NCBI GenBank assembly: GCA_003246335.1
Contig: QKAR01000154.1
Span: 1 to 54,803 of the forward strand
Direction: 5' to 3'
Length of the DNA: 54,803 nucleotides
Origin: Spirochaetales bacterium
Lineage (GTDB): Bacteria > Spirochaetota > Spirochaetia > Treponematales > Treponemataceae
The position numbers were made by a program, and so were the translations under genes. The notes below the pieces were generated by a model. The model was given only the letters and a program-made list of their open reading frames with translations, was not told the DNA's origin and did not search any database. How positions within the stretch are numbered: position 1 is the first letter of the stretch; every line of letters begins with the position of its first letter. Below, one piece after another: positions 19,368 through 31,446 of this stretch.

Positions 19368-21166
19368 ATCGTCTCCAGGAAGGGAACGAGGGCGAGTTTC
19401 ATGCCGCTTTTCAGGACGGAACGGGTCGCGCGCGCCAACTCAAGCCGCGTGCGCGCGAGATCCGGGTTCCCGGCCGCTAAAATGGGGCAGTCGTGATAGA
19501 AGCGGCTGAAGCACTTGGCCGTGTCGTAGAGGCTCGCGCTAATCGCGCTCGGGTCGCGGTTTTCGGCCGCGCGCGCCACCTGCTGCGGATAATCGCCGAT
19601 CGCCTTCAAGAGTTCCCATTCGGCCTCGTCGGTCAGAAGTTCGGCCTTCACCGAACCGCCGGCGAGCGCGCCGGCCGTCGCGTTGCCCGCGGCGTCGAAC
19701 GCGCACTCCGCCTCGACCTTGCGCAGGATGGAGGAAATGCGCGCGCCCATGTACTGCAGGTACGGGCCGGTATTTCCCTGGAACGACAGGGACTCTTTCG
19801 GGTTAAAGATCATGTCCTTCGTCGGCGTCGTCTGCAGGAGGAAATAATGAAGGGCGCCGAGGGCGATTTTTTCCGCGACGTCGGCGGGGTCTCCGACGGC
19901 TTCCTCTCGGCCTTTCGCCTGAATTTCCTCGAGCGCGCCATCGCGCAGGCTGTTAATGAGGTCGTCGCCGTCGACGACCGTACCCTCGCGGCTCTTCATC
20001 TTTCCCTCGGGCAAGTTGACCATGCCGTACGAAAGGTGATAGAGGTCTTTCGACCATTCGTAGCCGAGTTTTTGGAGCACGTAGAACAGCACCTTGAAGT
20101 GATATTGCTGCTCGCTGCCGACGACGTAAATGAGGCGGTTAAAGTCCCAGTCCGCGTGCCGATGAATGGCGGTGCCGATGTCCTGCGTCATATAGAGCGC
20201 CGTGCCGTCCTTGCGGAGCAGGACTTTTTTGTCGAGGTTGATCGGCGCGAGATCGACCCACACCGAACCGTCATCCTCGCGGTAGAAAATCCCCTTTTCG
20301 AGGCCGGCGAGAATTTCGTCTTTCCCCTTGAGGTAGGTTTCGCTTTCGTAATAAATTTTGTCGAACGAAACGCCCGTGCGCGCGTAGGTTTGCTTGATGC
20401 CGTTTTCGGCCCAGCCGTTCATGCGCGCCCACAGCTCGCGCACCTTGGCGTCGCCCGCTTCCCAGGCGATCAAAAGATCCTGCGCCTCGCGCTCGGCCTC
20501 CTCGGGATGCTCTTTCGCGTAAGTATTAAAGGCAACGTAGCAGTCGCCGACGAAACGGTCGCTCTTGACGCCCTCGGACTCGGGCGTCTTTCCGGCGAAA
20601 AATTTCTGATAGGCGAGCATGGACTTGCAAATATGAATGCCCCGGTTATTGACGATGTTGACCTTAAACACCTCGGCGCCGGAAAAGGCGAGAATGCGGG
20701 AAACGCTCTCGCCGAGCGCGTCGTTTCGAAGGTGCCCCAAGTGGAGGGGCTTATTCGTGTTCGGGCTCGAGAACTCGATCATGATGCGCTGACCGGCAAG
20801 GATATCGAGCTTACCGTAGGAATCGCCGGCGGCAGCGACCGCGGCGAGCGTATTGCCGGCGACATAGGAGCGTGAAAGGAACGCGTTAACGTAGGGACCG
20901 ACTTGCTTGACGGTTCCAAGCGCGGCGGTAGAAGTATCCTCGGCGAGCCGACGGACGACTTCGGCGGCGATTTGCGGTGGCCCCATGCGGAACGCTTTCG
21001 CGAAAGCGAACATGGGAAAGCCCACGTCGCCCATGGCGGGATCGGGCGGGGTTTCCGCGGACACCGCGCTCATTCCGATCGCGGGCACGTCGATCGATTT
21101 TTCTTTTCGCATTCCCTCAAGCGCCGCCGCGACGCGCGCGCGCCATTCATCCCGAATCTCAGCCAT
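19364..21166 (-). CDS. argS: Arginyl-tRNA synthetase
   Basis: A 600-residue class I synthetase charging tRNA-Arg in the cytoplasm. The N-terminal additional domain covers about residues 1-110. The HIGH-type motif reads LHLGH within NTNKPLHLGHLRND, and the KMSKS-type loop is replaced by GKMKSREGT, as usual for ArgRS. The helical anticodon-binding domain ends the protein, with the terminal PFLETM. A GTG 18 nt earlier is open, but ATG 21166 has AGGAGA 6-7 nt upstream and is preferred. It is followed by DUF3820 with an ATGA overlap, and separated by 57 nt from the PgeF-type gene upstream, so it may be the tail of a longer transcript. Confidence 0.96.
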   Translation of the reverse strand: MAEIRDEWRARVAAALEGMRKEKSIDVPAIGMSAVSAETPPDPAMGDVGFPMFAFAKAFRMGPPQIAAEVVRRLAEDTSTAALGTVKQVGPYVNAFLSRSYVAGNTLAAVAAAGDSYGKLDILAGQRIMIEFSSPNTNKPLHLGHLRNDALGESVSRILAFSGAEVFKVNIVNNRGIHICKSMLAYQKFFAGKTPESEGVKSDRFVGDCYVAFNTYAKEHPEEAEREAQDLLIAWEAGDAKVRELWARMNGWAENGIKQTYARTGVSFDKIYYESETYLKGKDEILAGLEKGIFYREDDGSVWVDLAPINLDKKVLLRKDGTALYMTQDIGTAIHRHADWDFNRLIYVVGSEQQYHFKVLFYVLQKLGYEWSKDLYHLSYGMVNLPEGKMKSREGTVVDGDDLINSLRDGALEEIQAKGREEAVGDPADVAEKIALGALHYFLLQTTPTKDMIFNPKESLSFQGNTGPYLQYMGARISSILRKVEAECAFDAAGNATAGALAGGSVKAELLTDEAEWELLKAIGDYPQQVARAAENRDPSAISASLYDTAKCFSRFYHDCPILAAGNPDLARTRLELARATRSVLKSGMKLALVPFLETM

Positions 21167-21223
21167 TCTGTCGTCTCCTGTCACACTGATAAGGGTTGAT
21201 TTTAGCCGAAACGGCGGACTCGT

Positions 21224-21961
21224 TCAATGCCAAAAAACGAAGGCGGCCATGTGGGTAAAAGAATCGCCGCCCTCACGCCGGGAAGAGCCGTACGCGGGAA
21301 GGCAACAAGTGCATGCGCCCGAGTCAACGATGCGCTCGGGTAAAACGCCGGACTCGAGGCAAGCCGCCCTATTCGCTTCCGCGAGCGAGAGCCGATAGGG
21401 CCACGGGCTATTTTGGGCGAGCCGAGCCGCGTCGGGAGCGACGCAGGCGGGGGTAAAATTCTTGGAGAAATACTCGAACCGTTCCGCGTCCACGGTGTAG
21501 CAGCACGAATGGATGTGGGGCCCGAAAACGACGCGAAAATCCTCGGGTCGCGCGCCCCAGATGTCGCGCGCGAGGTCAAGCGCGACGCGGACGATGCCGG
21601 TGCCCTTCCAACCGGAATGAAGCGCGCCGAAACACCGAGTCTCGGGATCAAAGAGGAAAATCGGCATGCAATCGGCGACGGTGACGCAGGGAACGAGGGA
21701 GGAATTCCTCGTAATGATTCCGTCTCCCGCCGGAAACGCCTCGAAACCCGCCGAGCTCTCGGCAACCAGCACGTCGCGGGAATGAATTTGTGAAACGGAC
21801 ACCACCGAGGCCGCGTCAAGCCCCAGGGAAGAGAAATAACGAGCGCGATTACACGCGTCGCGGGCGGGCTTCATCGGACCGGCGGACGCGAGCGAAACGC
21901 CGCACCGGGGGGCGCTCCCGGTAAAGTCGGGAAAATCCATATAAAAAGTCGAGCTAACCAT
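21224..21961 (-). CDS. pgeF: Peptidoglycan-editing factor / laccase-domain protein (YfiH, YlmD type)
   Basis: A 245-residue protein of the Cu-oxidase_4/DUF152 family. The three metal ligands are visible: His in SQIHS, Cys in VADCMP and His in ALHSGWKGT, in the right order and spacing. Family members include PgeF, which removes wrongly placed serine in muropeptides, and purine-nucleoside-active enzymes. Two starts compete. GTG 21976 overlaps the upstream stop by 4 bp (GTGA). ATG 21961 lies 5 nt after TAGAAT and is preferred as an ATG with a -10-like hexamer, though without a good -35. The gene lies between argS and the DUF5312-like gene, all on the minus strand. Confidence 0.85.
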   Translation of the reverse strand: MVSSTFYMDFPDFTGSAPRCGVSLASAGPMKPARDACNRARYFSSLGLDAASVVSVSQIHSRDVLVAESSAGFEAFPAGDGIITRNSSLVPCVTVADCMPIFLFDPETRCFGALHSGWKGTGIVRVALDLARDIWGARPEDFRVVFGPHIHSCCYTVDAERFEYFSKNFTPACVAPDAARLAQNSPWPYRLSLAEANRAACLESGVLPERIVDSGACTCCLPAYGSSRREGGDSFTHMAAFVFWH

Positions 21962-24811: not shown

Positions 24812-25861
24812 TTACGCGCGCCCGCTTTTCTTGAATCCCTGAACCCGCGCGCTCGCGTTCACCGACCAAGGACTCCGATCCCCTCGAGCCAGAAACCGAT
24901 ACCCGACGCCCGCTATCATCGCGCCGTTATCGGTGCAGAGCTTGAGCGGCGGGAAAACGCAGGTAAGGCCCGTTTCGGCCGCGAGCAAAGCCCGCAGGCG
25001 CGAATTCGCCGCGACTCCGCCTCCGGCCACGACCGTCGTCAAACCCGTGTCCTCGACCGCGCGCAGTAGCCGGGAAAGAAGGATTTTTACGGCGGCTTCC
25101 TGGAAGGCCGCGGAAATATTCTCGGGCGTGCGCTCAAAATCGGCGTTCCAGAACTGATCGATCTGGTTTATGGCCGCCGTTTTCAGCCCTGAGTACGACA
25201 CGTCATAGCGATGCGCGGCGACGCCCTCCGCGACGTTACCGGCGCGATTTTGTTTGTCGATAAAAGGCATGGGAAAGCGCGCCGCGCGAGGATCGCCCAA
25301 TTTCGCGAGCTTGTCGATCGCGACTCCGCCCGGATACCCGAAACCGTAGAATTTTGCGACTTTGTCAAACGCCTCGCCCACCGCGTCATCGATCGTGGTG
25401 CCCAAAACCTCGATATCGTCGAAATCGGATACTTTGCAAATTATCGAATGCCCGCCGGAGACGAGAAGGCCCAAGTATGGGTACGAAATATCGTTCGCCA
25501 AATGCGCGGCGTATAAATGGCCAAGCATGTGGTTCACCGCGATGAACGGTTTTTTCGTCGCCCAGGCGAGAGTTTTTCCGAAAGTCAGGCCAACGAGCAA
25601 AGAACCCATTAAGCCGGGCCGATTCGTCACGGCGATGCCGTCAATCTCGTCGATCGTCAATTTCGCCTCGGAAAGGGCCTGCTTCACGACGGGCAGTATC
25701 CACTCGGTATGCTTTCTGCTCGCGATTTCCGGCACGACGCCGTTATACGTTTCATGAAAGGGAATTTGCGTGGCGACCACGTTACTGATTATGACGCGAC
25801 CGTCCTCGACTACCGCAGCGGCGGTTTCGTCGCAAGAGCTTTCAATGCCTAAAACTTTCAT
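24812..25861 (-). CDS. tsaD: tRNA N6-threonylcarbamoyladenosine transferase TsaD
   Basis: A 349-residue cytoplasmic enzyme for the essential t6A37 modification of ANN-decoding tRNAs, acting with TsaB/TsaC/TsaE. It has the ASKHA-fold entry MKVLGIESSCDETA, the metal-binding histidines in HMLGHLYAAH (about residue 113), and the phosphate loops SGGHS and GGGVAANSRLR (about 270). Length is normal. The ATG overlaps the stop of the polysaccharide-deacetylase gene by 4 bp (25858-25861), so it is co-translated with it. None of the partner genes is in the window. Confidence 0.96.
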   Translation of the reverse strand: MKVLGIESSCDETAAAVVEDGRVIISNVVATQIPFHETYNGVVPEIASRKHTEWILPVVKQALSEAKLTIDEIDGIAVTNRPGLMGSLLVGLTFGKTLAWATKKPFIAVNHMLGHLYAAHLANDISYPYLGLLVSGGHSIICKVSDFDDIEVLGTTIDDAVGEAFDKVAKFYGFGYPGGVAIDKLAKLGDPRAARFPMPFIDKQNRAGNVAEGVAAHRYDVSYSGLKTAAINQIDQFWNADFERTPENISAAFQEAAVKILLSRLLRAVEDTGLTTVVAGGGVAANSRLRALLAAETGLTCVFPPLKLCTDNGAMIAGVGYRFLARGDRSPWSVNASARVQGFKKSGRA

Positions 25862-27072
25862 TGGTCATATTCTCCGTTCGTCGCGATTTCCGCGATCGTG
25901 GAAAGCGAAAAGCCTTGTTTAACGAGCTCCGGATACATGGAGGAGAGGATATCGGCGAGGTCGTTGGACCATACATGACCGATCATGATGGCGGAACCTC
26001 GCCGCTCGGCGACTTTTAGTCCGCCTTCAACCGCCGCGATGATTGTCTCGCGATCCTGAGTATTGTCAAGAAACACTGCTCGCTCCCAAATGTTCATGTT
26101 TCGTTCCCTCGCGATCTGCGGGGCGACGGTATCGGACGTCGTTCGGGAGTCGAGGAAAAAAATTTTCTTCTCCTGAATCACGTCAAAAACCGCGTTCATG
26201 GCGGCGCGATCCGCCGTGATTAACGACCCCTCGTGATTGTTTAAGCCGGCGACGGGCCAAATTTCGGCCAAATTCGCGCGAACGATCGCCCGTACGCGAT
26301 CGGGAGCCATGCCCTTCGTCAGCGCGCCCGGTCCAGGATCGAGCGAGAGATTGACGGCCTGCATCGGCTGATGCAAAAGCACTTGTTTGCCCGCCGCGCG
26401 AGCACGACGGGCGGCTTCCTGAGAATACCGCAATCCCGGCAAAACGGCAATAGAGCAGGGAAACGGGAGATCAAGGAAGGGTTGGAGCTGGGCAAGATTA
26501 TGTCCGGCATCGTCAAAGACGAAAATTAACGTCCCTTTTTTTTTCATCGCAACGGTTTTTCGGGTAGGAGCGGAGTTCGCCGTTGACGCAGAGGGAACGT
26601 TCGCCGGATTGGGCGCGATCGCCGGCTTTGCCGGGACCGAGGGCGGTTTCGTCTTCAAGGGAGGCGACGTTTTCGCGACCGATTCGGTTTTCGCCGGAGG
26701 GGTTTTCTTTGGCGTAGCGGATGGCTGGACTGTAGACGAAGAGATGGGCGCTATCGTCGGTGTCGGCCGCTGAGCGGGAGATACGACGGACGAGACGGAA
26801 GGAGTCTCTAGGGAGGGAGGCGCGGGAACGGGAGAGTCGCGGCCTGCCGGAACAGATTCCGCGGGTTTATCCGAAGCGGAATTCGCGATCGGTTCGGGCA
26901 CAACAGACAGGGTCGACGCCACCGGCGCCGAAGCCGCCTGCAAGGCGGCTTTTCCCGCGAGCAAGGCCGTCGAGATTCCAACGATTATGGCAAGCAAAAC
27001 GACGGTTATTTTAACTTCGTCGAATTTACGCTTGCCGCGTTTTCGTCGCGTCGGCCTTTTTTTTCGCTCCAT
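25858..27072 (-). CDS. Membrane-anchored divergent polysaccharide deacetylase
   Basis: A 404-residue protein. The basic N-terminus (MERKKRPTRRKRGKRK) is followed by one membrane segment (about residues 22-44), a long Pro/Ser/Thr/Lys linker (50-175), and a periplasmic catalytic domain of about 220 residues. The domain begins LIFVFDDAGHN and contains FPCSIAVLPGL, LLHQPM and NNHEGS, with GHVWSN near the end. This is the divergent polysaccharide deacetylase family (PF04748, YibQ-type), expected to remove acetyl groups from an envelope glycan; the substrate is unknown. TTGACA-N17-TATTCT lies 8 nt upstream of the ATG and there is no Shine-Dalgarno site. It is coupled to tsaD. Confidence 0.85.
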   Translation of the reverse strand: MERKKRPTRRKRGKRKFDEVKITVVLLAIIVGISTALLAGKAALQAASAPVASTLSVVPEPIANSASDKPAESVPAGRDSPVPAPPSLETPSVSSVVSPAQRPTPTIAPISSSTVQPSATPKKTPPAKTESVAKTSPPLKTKPPSVPAKPAIAPNPANVPSASTANSAPTRKTVAMKKKGTLIFVFDDAGHNLAQLQPFLDLPFPCSIAVLPGLRYSQEAARRARAAGKQVLLHQPMQAVNLSLDPGPGALTKGMAPDRVRAIVRANLAEIWPVAGLNNHEGSLITADRAAMNAVFDVIQEKKIFFLDSRTTSDTVAPQIARERNMNIWERAVFLDNTQDRETIIAAVEGGLKVAERRGSAIMIGHVWSNDLADILSSMYPELVKQGFSLSTIAEIATNGEYDQ

Positions 27073-27080
27073 GGCGAGAA

Positions 27081-27109
27081 AGAATAAACGGGGCGGCTAA
27101 ACCTGTCAA
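27081..27109 (-). promoter_or_regulatory. Promoter of the deacetylase-tsaD transcript
   Basis: TTGACA (27104-27109) and TATTCT (27081-27086) at 17 nt, then 8 nt to ATG 27072. The -35 element overlaps the last codons of the sigma-factor gene. Confidence 0.7.
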
Positions 27110-27933
27110 CCGCACACGATTTCGCGCAAATCCTCCGAACGAACTTTGAGTTTTCGCAAGGCGCGAAGCTCAACTTGTCGAATCGTTTCGGCGGAAACGC
27201 CGTACTCCACGCCGATCGCCTTCAGCGTGTACGTGCTGCCGTCATGGGTGAGGTTATACCGTTTCGTGACGATATCGCGCTCGCCTTCCTTTAATCCCGA
27301 GAGGATATCCGCCATATACTCATGTGTATACTTTTTCATAAACACGTCTTCGGGATTATACGTTGAATCGGGCACTAAATCCATTAACGAGCCGGTTTCT
27401 TCGTCATCCAACGGGAGGTCGAGGCTTGAAACAGCACCCGAACACCGAATTAAATCCGCGACTTCTCGCTCCTCAATATTGAGATGGGCCGCGATCTCGG
27501 CGTTAGTCGGAAAACGGGAAAGGCGTTGGTACAATTCCGAGGAGGTTTTGCGAATCCGTCCCGCGAGCTCTTCCTTGCGAAACGGAAGCCGAATGAGCCG
27601 ACGTTTGTTCGCGATAGCCCGGGTTATCGATTGCTGAATCCACCAACAGGCATAGGTCGAAAAACGAACGTTAAATGAAAAAGAAAATTTCTGCGCGGCG
27701 GTAATAAGACCGAGATTCCCTTCCTGAATGATGTCCAGCAAGGGAAGGTCGGGTGCCGCGTATTTTCGGGCAATAGTGACAACGAGTCGAAGGTTCGACT
27801 CGATGAGTTTTTTTTGCGCGGGCAAATCGCCGGACTGAATTTTACGCGATAGTTCAATTTCTTCTTCGAAACTGAGCAGTGGATACTTGCGAATCGCTTT
27901 TAAATAATCACTTATTGAATCTTGGTCACCCAT
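27106..27933 (-). CDS. Alternative sigma-70 family factor (RpoS/RpoD group 2 type)
   Basis: A 275-residue sigma factor. Region 1.2 is DSISDYLKAIRKYPLLSFEEEIEL; there is no region 1.1, so it is not the main housekeeping factor. Region 2 has ESNLRLVVTIARKY, LDIIQEGNLGLI and FSTYACWWIQQSITRAI (the usual Thr/Ala is Cys here). Region 3 follows. Region 4.2 contains YTLKAIGVEYGVSAETIRQVE, the -35-binding helix-turn-helix. The layout and size match group 2 factors such as RpoS; Borrelia RpoS is of similar length. A near-perfect sigma-54 promoter lies just upstream (27965-27982) and GGGGGA precedes the ATG. Its regulon cannot be read here. It is the only clear regulator in the window besides ArgR. Confidence 0.9.
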   Translation of the reverse strand: MGDQDSISDYLKAIRKYPLLSFEEEIELSRKIQSGDLPAQKKLIESNLRLVVTIARKYAAPDLPLLDIIQEGNLGLITAAQKFSFSFNVRFSTYACWWIQQSITRAIANKRRLIRLPFRKEELAGRIRKTSSELYQRLSRFPTNAEIAAHLNIEEREVADLIRCSGAVSSLDLPLDDEETGSLMDLVPDSTYNPEDVFMKKYTHEYMADILSGLKEGERDIVTKRYNLTHDGSTYTLKAIGVEYGVSAETIRQVELRALRKLKVRSEDLREIVCG

Positions 27934-27964
27934 ACATCCCCCAATCAGTGTTTCACGTTTCTAC

Positions 27965-27982
27965 AAGCAAGAACCGTGCCAA
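27965..27982 (-). promoter_or_regulatory. Sigma-54 (RpoN) promoter upstream of the sigma factor gene
   Basis: The minus strand reads TTGGCACGGTTCTTGCTT, which matches the sigma-54 consensus YTGGCACG-N4-TTGCW at every fixed position with exact -24/-12 spacing. The predicted start lies near 27955, about 20 nt ahead of the ATG at 27933, leaving room for the GGGGGA ribosome site (27937-27942). Confidence 0.85.
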
Positions 27983-28039: not shown

Positions 28040-28117
28040 TTATCGCATTTTTTTCACGTTTTTTACAGTATCTTTTTTTATAACTCCACCACCCGGTATT
28101 GTATACTTTCTTAGAAC

Positions 28118-29371
28118 TTAAGCGTTCGCGGCTTCAAAAATAAACGAGGCAATCACGCGAGCGTCCCCTGAGAGATTTTCGAGTATGCAGTATTCATTCG
28201 GCTGGTGGGCCGTTTCGTCCAGACGCCCCCAAACTACCGCGTCAACGCCAATGTTGCGAAGAAACGCCGCGACCGTTCCGCCGCCGATACCGACGGGCCG
28301 TGCCGTAACGCCGTATACCGCGTGAATCGCGCGGGAAAGCGCCGTAACGACCGGGGCGGAAACATCCGTCGCGCGAGACTCGACGGCTTGCTCATCGATC
28401 ATCTCAATACTCACCCCGTACTCGCGTTCCACGCCGAGTACGATCTCGCGCATCGCGGCGCGCACTTCCTTTAAAGTATAGGACGGAAGCACGCGACAAT
28501 CCAGATAAAAAACGTCAAGTCCGGGAATGGTGTTGATATTGGGGACGTTCGCCTCTTTTTTCGTCGGCTGGAACGTCGATCGATCCGGCTCAAACAAGGC
28601 ATCTCGGCGCTCAAAAGTTTCCTCGAGCGCGTTAAGACGAAGCGCGAGGGCGCAGCCGGCGAGATGCGCGTTCGCGCCCAGATCCGGTCGCGAGCCGTGC
28701 GCCTGCTTCCCTTTCGTGACGAACTTTAGCCATAAAAGGTTTTTTTCGGCCACTTCGACCGTTTCTCCCTTCGAGTCCCCTCCGTCGGGAATGACGACGA
28801 GATCGTTCGGTCGGAATAGGTCGCTATGATTCTCTATAAGGTACTTTATGCCGAAGTCCGAGCCGAGTTCCTCGTCGGACACGAATAACAGCTGTATCGT
28901 ATGCGGCGGAACAATGCCGTTTTTCAGGAAAGCAAGCGCCGCGAAAACGCCGGCGACAAGCCCCTGCTGATCGTCCTCAACGCCGCGCCCGTATATTTTG
29001 CCGTCTTTCTCGACGACTTTCCACGGATCGGAATTCCATTTGCCGAGATCTCCCGGGGGAACCACGTCCATGTGCGCCATCACCCATACGCGGCGGGAGT
29101 CGTCGGCGCCGGGAACGGTAGCCACGAGGTTCGGCCGAATTTTTCGCGCCGGGTCTGATGCCGGCACGCGATCGTCCGGGCAGTCGTATCGCTCGAAATG
29201 CGCAAAGCCGAGATCGCGCAGGGCCTTGGTGAGCGCCTCGCATTTCGCGAGCTCGCCCTCGCCGCCCGAGGCCGGGGAAATCGCCGGCACGGAAGTTAAC
29301 AGGGTTTCAAGGGCGACCATGGCCGGAACCTGACCTTCGATCCAAGAGGAAATGGTTTCAAAATCGTTCAT
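28118..29371 (-). CDS. M20 family metallopeptidase (PepV/DapE-like)
   Basis: A 417-residue cytoplasmic enzyme. Metal and catalytic positions are His and Asp in VMAHMDVVPPGD, Asp in GRGVEDDQQG, the Glu-Glu pair in SDEELGSD, Asp in VIPDGGD and His near the C-terminus in DETAHQPNE. A lid/dimerisation domain is inserted around KFVTKGKQAHGSRPD. This is the M20 pattern of dipeptidases such as PepV or of DapE-type deacylases; substrate choice is not readable. Two ATGs compete (29380 and 29371). The second has AAAGGA 8 nt upstream and is chosen. It is downstream of the ABC-F gene with a 38-nt gap and upstream of the sigma factor. Confidence 0.85.
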   Translation of the reverse strand: MNDFETISSWIEGQVPAMVALETLLTSVPAISPASGGEGELAKCEALTKALRDLGFAHFERYDCPDDRVPASDPARKIRPNLVATVPGADDSRRVWVMAHMDVVPPGDLGKWNSDPWKVVEKDGKIYGRGVEDDQQGLVAGVFAALAFLKNGIVPPHTIQLLFVSDEELGSDFGIKYLIENHSDLFRPNDLVVIPDGGDSKGETVEVAEKNLLWLKFVTKGKQAHGSRPDLGANAHLAGCALALRLNALEETFERRDALFEPDRSTFQPTKKEANVPNINTIPGLDVFYLDCRVLPSYTLKEVRAAMREIVLGVEREYGVSIEMIDEQAVESRATDVSAPVVTALSRAIHAVYGVTARPVGIGGGTVAAFLRNIGVDAVVWGRLDETAHQPNEYCILENLSGDARVIASFIFEAANA

Positions 29372-29409
29372 AACTAGCATCCTTTGCCGATGATTCCCGC
29401 AAGGGAACG

Positions 29410-31446
29410 TCACCGAGCGCGCGTTTTTTCTTCGAGGAGCGTCACGATGCGCTCCCATTCGGCGGTTAAATCCTGGGAAAGCCGATCGAGGCGATCGATT
29501 TCTTCTTGTACCGCCTTGCTTTTTTTACCGTCTGAATACACCGCGGGCGTCGCGAGTTCCGACTCGCGGGCCTTTTTATCGTCGTCGGCGCGGGCGATTT
29601 CCTCAAGCAAACGCGATTCTTCCTTCTCGAGTTTTCGCAGTTCGGAACGATAGCGCTTTTCTTCCTCGTAGCTTAAGGCCGCCGGTCGCGTCGGCGACAC
29701 CGGAACGGGACCCGAAGGCGAGGCGGGCGAAGAGGACAAGGATTGCGCGAGCGGCGCTTTTTTCCCGATTCCCGACGGTTCGAGAGAATCGCCGGCCGCG
29801 GCTTCCGCCGACTCGCGCTCGATTCGCTCATGGTAATACCGGTAATCGCCGGGAAAGTTTCGCACCCGCGCGGGAACGCCCGGGGAAGACGCCGTTAGCT
29901 CAAGCACGCGCGTGGCGAGCCCTTCGATAAACCCGCGATCGTGCGAAACGAATACTATCGTTCCCTCAAACGAGCGGAGAGCCTCGAGGAGCACGTCTTT
30001 CGAGTGCAGGTCCAGATGGTTCGTCGGCTCATCGAGGAGCAAGAGATTGAGGGGACGAAAGAGAAGCCTCAAGAGGGCGAGCCTACTCTTTTCGCCGCCG
30101 GAAAGGACGCTCACCTGCTTGTACACGTCGTCTCCCCGGAACAGGAACGAGCCGAGCATGTCCCGGATTTTCGGCACGAGCTCGGTCGGCGCCTCTCCTT
30201 CCAAAAGGTCGACGATGCGCTCGCTTCCGGTCAGGAGCTCGGCGTTATCCTGCGAGAAATACCCCGCGACGACGCCGGCACCAAGCGAGATCGTTCCCGA
30301 ATAGTCGGCGTCAACGCCGGCGAGGGCGCGCAAGAGCGTGGATTTACCCGCGCCGTTCCGGCCGACTACGACGAGTTTTTCGCCCTTCTCCACCACGAGA
30401 TCGAGGTTCTCGATGACGCGCCGATCGCCGTAGCTGCGATTAAGACCGGTCGCGGTCAGTACCAGGCGCCCGGAATGCGGCGCCGGGGGAAATCGAAAAT
30501 GTATTTTCTTGAGGCTTTCGGGAATCTCGATCCGCTCGAGCTTATCGAGCATCTTGATGCGTTCCTGGACCATGGCGGCCTTCGAGGCCTTGTAGCGGAA
30601 GCGCTCGATGAGGGCCTCGGCCTTCGCGATTTCTTCCTGTTGTTCGTGGTATCGCTTGACGAGTGATTCGACTTCCGCCTCGCGGACGGCTTCGTACTGG
30701 GTATACGTGCCGGCATAGCGCTTAATATCGCCGCCGAAAAGCTCGTACACCTCGTTCACGGTAACGTCGAGAAAATAGCGGTCGTGGCTGACGATGAGGA
30801 ATCCTCCGGTAAAGTCGCGGAGCCATTCCTCAAGCCAATCGCGCGCCTCGAGGTCGAGGTAATTCGTCGGCTCGTCGAGAAGGAGGATGTCGGGACGCTC
30901 AAGGAGAATTTTCGCGAGGGCGACGCGCATCTGCCATCCGCCCGAGAATTCCTCCACGCGGCGGGTAAAGTCCGACGGAACGAAACCGAGCCCCAGCAGG
31001 GTGGTCTCGGCGAGCGAGCGGCGCCGGTGCCAGCCGGATTCCTCGAGGGCTACCTGGGTTTCGTGGTGTTCCTCGACGAGGCGCGCGACGCGGGAATCGT
31101 CGGAGGAGGAACCGATCGCGGCGAGTTCATCGCCGAGGAGCTCCAACCGCTCCGACAGCTCGATGCCGCGCGTGAAGGCGAGCTCGATTTCGTCCATGAG
31201 CGTGCGCCCGGAATGCACGATGCCGGACTGCGGCAGATAGGAAACTCGGGTGCCCTTTTGAATCGCACGGTCGCCGCCGTCGGGATTAACCGAGCCGGCG
31301 AGGACCTTCATCAGCGTAGACTTGCCCGAGCCATTCGCGCCGGCAAGCGCGGCCTTCGAGCCGGAGGCGAGATTCAGCGACACGTTCTTGAGGATATCGC
31401 GATCGCCGAACGCGAGGGAAACGCGGGAAAATTGAACGAATGCCAT
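29410..31446 (-). CDS. ABC-F family ATPase
   Basis: A 678-residue soluble protein with two ABC ATPase domains and no membrane segment. Domain 1 has Walker A GANGSGKST, signature FSGGWQMR and Walker B LLLDEPTNYLD. Domain 2 has GRNGAGKST, LSGGEKSR and LLLDEPTNHLD. A linker between them carries the charged P-site tRNA-interaction helix pair. The C-terminal 130 residues are Pro/Ser-rich and then a Glu/Lys/Arg coiled coil, like the Uup/YdiF branch. ABC-F proteins act on ribosomes (translation factors or target protection). The start overlaps the stop of the SH3 lipoprotein by one base (TGATG), indicating coupling. Confidence 0.92.
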   Translation of the reverse strand: MAFVQFSRVSLAFGDRDILKNVSLNLASGSKAALAGANGSGKSTLMKVLAGSVNPDGGDRAIQKGTRVSYLPQSGIVHSGRTLMDEIELAFTRGIELSERLELLGDELAAIGSSSDDSRVARLVEEHHETQVALEESGWHRRRSLAETTLLGLGFVPSDFTRRVEEFSGGWQMRVALAKILLERPDILLLDEPTNYLDLEARDWLEEWLRDFTGGFLIVSHDRYFLDVTVNEVYELFGGDIKRYAGTYTQYEAVREAEVESLVKRYHEQQEEIAKAEALIERFRYKASKAAMVQERIKMLDKLERIEIPESLKKIHFRFPPAPHSGRLVLTATGLNRSYGDRRVIENLDLVVEKGEKLVVVGRNGAGKSTLLRALAGVDADYSGTISLGAGVVAGYFSQDNAELLTGSERIVDLLEGEAPTELVPKIRDMLGSFLFRGDDVYKQVSVLSGGEKSRLALLRLLFRPLNLLLLDEPTNHLDLHSKDVLLEALRSFEGTIVFVSHDRGFIEGLATRVLELTASSPGVPARVRNFPGDYRYYHERIERESAEAAAGDSLEPSGIGKKAPLAQSLSSSPASPSGPVPVSPTRPAALSYEEEKRYRSELRKLEKEESRLLEEIARADDDKKARESELATPAVYSDGKKSKAVQEEIDRLDRLSQDLTAEWERIVTLLEEKTRAR

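Follow-up and report, generated by a model that had tools for sequence, protein, structure and literature searches.

Cascades in which sigma-54 controls a further sigma factor include those leading to HrpL in Pseudomonas syringae and, through RpoN, to FliA in vibrios and pseudomonads. The described system closest to the present one is that of Borrelia burgdorferi, in which RpoN directly activates rpoS (PMC3037356) and in which the activator Rrp2 reportedly works without an enhancer. Francke 2011 (PMC3162934) names, as sigma factors driven by sigma-54, Sigma-S of Borrelia and enterobacterial Sigma-32, at that time still without experimental evidence for the second, and Treponema denticola has a protein called Rrp2 that is a predicted sigma-54 activator (PMC12070737). 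Here we report on a locus of contig QKAR01000154.1 from a Spirochaetales bacterium (GCA_003246335.1, a draft genome of 163 contigs, 91% complete), analysed over 54,803 nucleotides (nt), hereafter the window, in which a sigma-54 (-24/-12) promoter sequence, the 17-mer TTGGCACGGTTCTTGCT, precedes the gene of a group-2 sigma factor. We consider it very probable from sequence comparison that this is a genuine sigma-54 promoter driving an ortholog of Borrelia RpoS, and that the relay goes back at least as far as an ancestor of the class Spirochaetia.

The -24/-12 site and its conservation

An earlier, sequence-only reading of the locus had claimed that the -24/-12 consensus is matched at every fixed position about 30 nt before the start codon of a 275-residue group 2 sigma factor. 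This claim held. In the window scan TTGGCACGGTTCTTGCT fits TTGGCACRNNNNTTGCW at 13/13 specified positions, with the GG and GC elements at exact spacing, and it is the only exact match to TTGGCACRNNNNTTGCW in the 54.8-kb window. It stops 32 nt short of the ATG (27933) on the same strand and sits between the gene of an M20 peptidase and the sigma gene. The product contains the sigma-70 regions 1.2, 2, 3 and 4 (Pfam) and is missing the long non-conserved region of RpoD; the same genome has a separate gene of RpoD size with an open frame of 591 codons. The looser pattern TGGCN7TTGC occurs three times in the window, compared to 1.32 expected matches.

Across the source genome the exact pattern was found eight times and the reversed pattern not at all; summed over 15 spirochaete genomes the numbers were 46 and 2. 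The seven other exact sites of the source genome are distributed over the contigs C119, C85, C91, C96, C132, C39 and C158. Five of them stand beside or after an activator gene: those on C91, C96, C132 and C39, as well as the one on C85 (locus L271), which precedes nifH with the activator gene opposite. Since nifH is a classic sigma-54 target, this site serves as an internal positive control. The site on C119 precedes a second group-2 sigma gene. We further noticed that the site on C158 precedes an Hsp20 gene (L275 2553-3061) and that downstream of nifH two genes appear P-II-like by eye, so the organism may fix nitrogen.

We then scored the 30 best loci from a search of 100 genomes of the family. 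Every one of the 30 has a site with at least 11 of 13 matches no more than 150 nt upstream of the gene: 16 score 13, 12 score 12 and 2 score 11. Elsewhere in these loci 12 of 214,570 positions reach 11 and none reaches 12. An alignment of the spacer in related genomes had been proposed along with the promoter. Our alignment covers 12 loci, 11 of them from the genus plus G018. Few parts of the spacer vary as little as the -24/-12 site, and its GG and GC blocks belong to the best-conserved columns, with one locus reading TTGGAA and one reading ATGGCA as exceptions.

For a wider sample, loci were taken from the family search, a survey of the phylum with 198 genomes, a sigma factor survey with 20 genomes and further stretches. 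Family and phylum matches were fetched in part, best first and then by choice, and start codons of the relatives were assigned by script. FastTree sorted 145 group-2 loci into clade A (96 loci, support 0.84), which contains the window protein, clade B (41, 0.99) and clade C (8, 0.98). One locus at a contig edge without upstream sequence (L146), one of RpoD type (L153) and the duplicates L192, L213 and L218 were dropped from the counts. A site with at least 11 of 13 matches within 200 nt was present in 90 of 95 loci of clade A and in 26 of 41 of clade B, and in none of the eight loci of clade C, the sigma genes linked to nlpD. Shuffled upstream sequence reaches 11 in 0.5–0.7% of cases (0.5% for clade A), and RpoD loci score between 7 and 10 (21 loci, one gene counted twice). 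All 36 Borreliaceae genomes contain the gene, and 29 of the 30 loci fetched from them have a site of 11–13 matches; seven of the genomes scored here also belong to the 95 loci of clade A. The Borrelia exception, G270 (L296/L114), has a degraded rpoS site of 10/13 that reads TTGACATAATTGTTGTA, together with a full-length rrp2. Altogether the range of the site extends from the genus and its family through further families of the same order and class to the Borreliaceae and to families that branch deeper in the phylum. Judged by its sequence and conservation the 17-mer is a genuine sigma-54 promoter, from which RpoN would transcribe the sigma gene.

Relationship of the sigma factor to Borrelia RpoS

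In a careful tree built from 67 sequences, the window protein and Borrelia RpoS share one clade of 34 sequences (clade A, support 100/98), whose sister is a clade of 20 paralogs (clade B, 100/99); E. coli RpoS belongs to neither. Approximately unbiased (AU) tests rejected a forced placement of Borrelia in clade B (p-AU 0.008) as well as in clade C (p-AU 0.0002). The sequences of this tree were chosen by hand, and L163, a long-branched partner of Borrelia in a quick sigma factor tree, was left out; the quick tree itself left out 30 loci, mostly near relatives.

Gene order agrees with the tree within the class. The arrangement sigma gene, divergent polysaccharide deacetylase gene (PF04748) and tsaD on one strand was found in 14 of the 24 loci examined: two Borreliaceae (L219, L220), G002 and G018 of the family, the six named loci of the genus and four loci from further families of the class (G218, G275, G105, G253). 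Outside the class it was kept in none of four loci examined (G102, G106, G125, G136). The two Borreliaceae genomes represent Borrelia turicatae and Borrelia anserina, as their plasmid pieces are 100% identical to plasmids of 91E135 and Es. By phylogeny and, within the class, by position, the sigma gene of the window is the ortholog of Borrelia rpoS.

Two other assignments were rejected. The protein is not a proteobacterial RpoS equivalog, since its scores lie under the curated cut-offs (236.3 versus 378.7 bits for TIGR02394 rpoS_proteo and 222.7 versus 394 bits for NF004207); among the 25 best matches listed it stays below the cut-offs of RpoS, RpoD and RpoH models alike. A third group-2 sigma gene of the source genome, on C111 (L269 2133-4058), directly follows a LysM/M23 (nlpD-like) gene, as rpoS does in E. 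coli. It was rejected as the counterpart of Borrelia RpoS because it belongs to clade C, which is without sigma-54 sites and whose union with Borrelia was rejected by the AU test. For annotators this means that membership in clade A allows the true RpoS ortholog to be named, while the nlpD neighborhood would misassign it.

The second group-2 sigma gene of the source genome, on C119, belongs to clade B. Its 13/13 site is located at 20999-21015 and its reading frame at 21054-21914 (L268 3500-3516 and 3555-4415). A subclade of clade B from deep families is without sigma-54 sites.

Upstream region, activators and the Rrp2 ortholog

During inspection of the upstream region we found the palindrome GTATAC at an almost constant position. 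In 10 of the 11 genus loci an exact copy begins 123 to 127 nt upstream of the 17-mer's first base; 6 of the 11 have a second exact copy 33–34 nt closer, at -90 to -93. In total the genus loci contain 16 exact copies, compared to a mean of 0.59 and a maximum of 4 in 500 single-base shuffles. Relative to the predicted transcription start the pair is located at about -150 and -118, a distance that suits an activator site, which makes it a candidate enhancer of the sigma promoter. It could also belong to another regulator. A search for the pair in 11 genomes of the genus, with a pattern that misses the degenerate copy of the source genome, gave five matches in three genomes, three of them at the sigma promoter and two overlapping ones elsewhere, at a gene of G051 that by eye appears TetR-like and carries similar palindromes. 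The pair was therefore discarded as a guide to further targets of the activator, no second target having emerged in these 11 genomes. At the promoters of clade B the GTATAC pair is absent. Several of these (in the genus and G018; e.g. L070, L128, L135) by eye show a palindrome of the type TGTGTCA...ACACA, possibly the enhancer of another activator.

The coordinates of all features are collected in Table 1. A simple scan of the minus strand between 27934 and 28300 revealed no sigma-70-like promoter. The fold of the leader and the first codons gave no indication of a structured leader RNA (z -0.16), and a search of the whole window against Rfam at gathering thresholds returned two tRNAs and nothing else. 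A terminator-like stem at 27093-27113 (minus strand) lies just ahead of the deacetylase gene and overlaps the sigma stop codon.

Table 1. Features of the sigma gene locus, in window coordinates
Feature	Position	Strand	Basis and remarks
tsaD, second gene downstream	24812..25861	minus	domain/model match; same neighbor in the 14 of 24 loci
divergent polysaccharide deacetylase (PF04748), next gene downstream	25858..27072	minus	domain match; same neighbor in the 14 of 24 loci
group-2 sigma-70-family factor, 275 amino acids, ortholog of Borrelia RpoS	27106..27933	minus	Pfam regions, tree, AU tests, gene order
GGGGG, likely ribosome-binding site	27938..27942	minus	read from the sequence; G-rich element before the ATG in the 12-locus alignment
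predicted transcription start	27955	minus	computed, 12 nt past the C of the -12 GC
sigma-54 (-24/-12) promoter TTGGCACGGTTCTTGCT	27966..27982	minus	upstream of the sigma gene; consensus fit and site at orthologs
GATACT, degenerate proximal half of the candidate upstream activating sequence	28067..28072	minus	34 nt from the distal half; aligned with the genus copies
GTATAC, distal half of the candidate upstream activating sequence	28101..28106	minus	exact; begins 124 nt upstream of the 17-mer's first base
M20 peptidase, upstream	28118..29458	minus	same strand; found upstream in 6/6 named genus loci examined

A sigma-54 promoter depends on RpoN and an activator, and the sequence-only reading had treated the lack of an rpoN gene as an argument against itself and a search for an NtrC-type activator as a check. 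The source genome contains rpoN with all three sigma-54 domains. It also encodes ten sigma-54 activators (PF00158, E ≤ 1e-40), compared to one in each of three Borrelia genomes. Among the ten is an ortholog of Rrp2 on C86 (L266 3756-5147), which is 56% identical over 451 amino acids to Rrp2 of B. turicatae and contains a receiver domain, a Walker A motif, an AAA+ domain with a GSFTGA loop (GAFTGA-type) and a Fis-type helix-turn-helix. In a quick tree the Rrp2 clade (Shimodaira-Hasegawa-like approximate likelihood ratio test, SH-aLRT, 97) comprises a single protein per genome for 14 of the 15 genomes, including the source genome; of the fifteenth, G018, two of four activators had been fetched. 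This tree was built from 36 of 37 fetched loci (L049 is without a qualifying open frame), the 37 being about half of the 76 matches. In the source genome and at both Borrelia loci rrp2 is followed by the gene of a histidine kinase with PAS domain (hk2), a DNA polymerase III delta-like gene, cvpA and murG. At both Borrelia loci the rrp2-hk2-cvpA-murG block moreover adjoins tsaD, the deacetylase gene and rpoS. We moderately favor the Rrp2 ortholog over the other nine activators as the protein that would fire the sigma promoter.

Weighing of the relay and comparison with known systems

Taken together, the data suggest the following sequence of events. An activated enhancer-binding protein would open the closed complex of RpoN and RNA polymerase held at the site; the opened complex would switch on the group-2 sigma factor orthologous to Borrelia RpoS, and this factor would in turn redirect RNA polymerase to the genes of its own regulon. 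The relay would have been handed down from an ancestor at least as old as the class Spirochaetia, and its use by Borrelia would be a later development. The suggestion that an RpoN-to-RpoS relay is older than its role in ticks, made when the promoter was first noticed, thus finds support at the sequence level from orthology and promoter conservation.

A number of observations weigh against this reading. With two mismatches allowed, the consensus matches the window twice at an expectation of 2.44; since such forms are no commoner than expected, only the exact fit is unusual. Likewise, one mismatch gave 14 matches in the source genome versus 26 for the reversed control, which is not beaten, so that specificity rests on the exact sites and on conservation. 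The exact site is absent from 3 of the 15 genomes, namely the two Borrelia genomes, whose rpoS sites reach 12/13, and G020. Five loci of clade A score below 11 (L106 and L166 at 8, L178 at 9, L168 and L114 at 10); L178 has a 12/13 site at 232 nt, beyond the 200-nt limit. At three loci (L024, L025, L169) the site ends 11–12 nt before the assigned ATG, which would leave a predicted leader of 1–2 nt and points to a wrong start codon or a wrong model there. Borrelia RpoS is located on a long branch (2.0) in the careful tree, and for this reason gene order was used as an independent check. Here, tsaD is missing within the stretch in 9 of the 24 loci and in G005 the genes are nearby but turned; beyond the Spirochaetia orthology is supported by the tree alone.

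The distribution of the gene has gaps as well. In the genus it was found in 10 of 11 other genomes, with no match shown in G083 (77% complete). In further genomes of the family, for example G020, G043, G057, G064 and G071, which form one genus, the best match is only an RpoD-sized frame, for which reason the sigma gene has probably been lost there. The Rrp2 ortholog of G020, standing without the sigma gene, must have other targets. This 1.1-Mb genome, in which Rrp2 is kept and no match to the window sigma factor was obtained at E ≤ 1e-47, contains two sigma region-3 genes, one RpoD-sized and one with a 360-codon frame; a loss of the second stage of the relay is probable.

Among the alternatives, convergence survives best: the promoter would be real and the link to Borrelia would reflect separate gains of sigma-54 promoters in several lineages in which such cascades are useful. 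It could draw on clade B, where 26 of 41 loci also have sites and where the upstream motif in the genus is a different one, indicating that more than one kind of sigma gene in the phylum has a promoter of this type, and on the distance between site and ATG, which lies between 11 and 144 nt in clade A and reaches 232 nt in L178. However, 90 of the 95 clade A loci have the site, with a spread from the genus to the Borreliaceae and deeper families that would require very many parallel gains, and the orthology with Borrelia is also positional. Furthermore, the promoters of clades A and B could descend from one promoter that preceded the duplication. We therefore regard convergence as unlikely.

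It is still less likely, and in our view improbable, that the conserved element is used by another protein or is a rarely active promoter, with the sigma gene owing most of its transcription to a sigma-70 promoter or to transcripts that read through from the M20 peptidase gene. The GTATAC pair could indeed serve another regulator, given the similar palindromes at the TetR-like gene of G051. Against this stand the constancy of the GG and GC columns, the lack of a sigma-70-like site in the simple scan of the minus strand and the company of the other exact sites, most of which adjoin or follow activator genes. A chance match has a negligible probability and was rejected, as the site is kept upstream of the orthologs and exact sites greatly outnumber reversed ones across the 15 genomes, even though loose consensus forms are about as common as expected or rarer than the control.

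The inherited relay can be extended to a broader scenario, which we put forward tentatively and with more doubt than confidence. The Hk2-Rrp2-RpoN-RpoS axis may have been an ancestral life-style switch that lineages outside Borrelia drive through an enhancer, here the GTATAC pair. In Borrelia, where its genes share one neighborhood, the enhancer may have been lost when Rrp2 became the sole activator, and the switch redirected to tick-mammal transmission. Clade B would then form a second branch with its own enhancer motif in many non-Borrelia spirochaetes. If promoter, sigma factor and activator were indeed inherited from non-Borrelia spirochaetes, the original signal and regulon could be studied in spirochaetes that are cultivable and harmless, and the question would become how an older switch was rewired for the change of host.

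By tree and gene order the relay is of a known kind, that of Borrelia Rrp2-RpoN-RpoS; what looks new is its distribution. Among the matches listed in a search of the open-access literature, no title or beginning of an abstract pointed to this promoter outside Borrelia, which is weak evidence as subscription papers mostly lie outside such a search. The cascades of HrpL, FliA and enterobacterial rpoH resemble the present one in that a sigma-54 promoter drives another sigma factor, and they target other sigma groups. Proteobacterial RpoS, as in E. coli, is likewise a group-2 sigma factor, and its model TIGR02394 matches the window protein under the cut-off; it differs in lying outside the spirochaete clades A and B, and the sigma gene adjacent to nlpD is a separate gene here, on C111. 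The likeness to B. burgdorferi Rrp2-RpoN-RpoS, compared via B. turicatae and B. anserina, extends to an rpoS ortholog with a -24/-12 promoter, to rpoN, to an Rrp2 ortholog in an hk2-rrp2-cvpA-murG block and to the order rpoS-deacetylase-tsaD. In the Borrelia pathway rpoS is further regulated by BosR. The difference concerns the enhancer: the Borrelia system reportedly does without one, whereas in the genus studied here the GTATAC pair is located upstream of the promoter.
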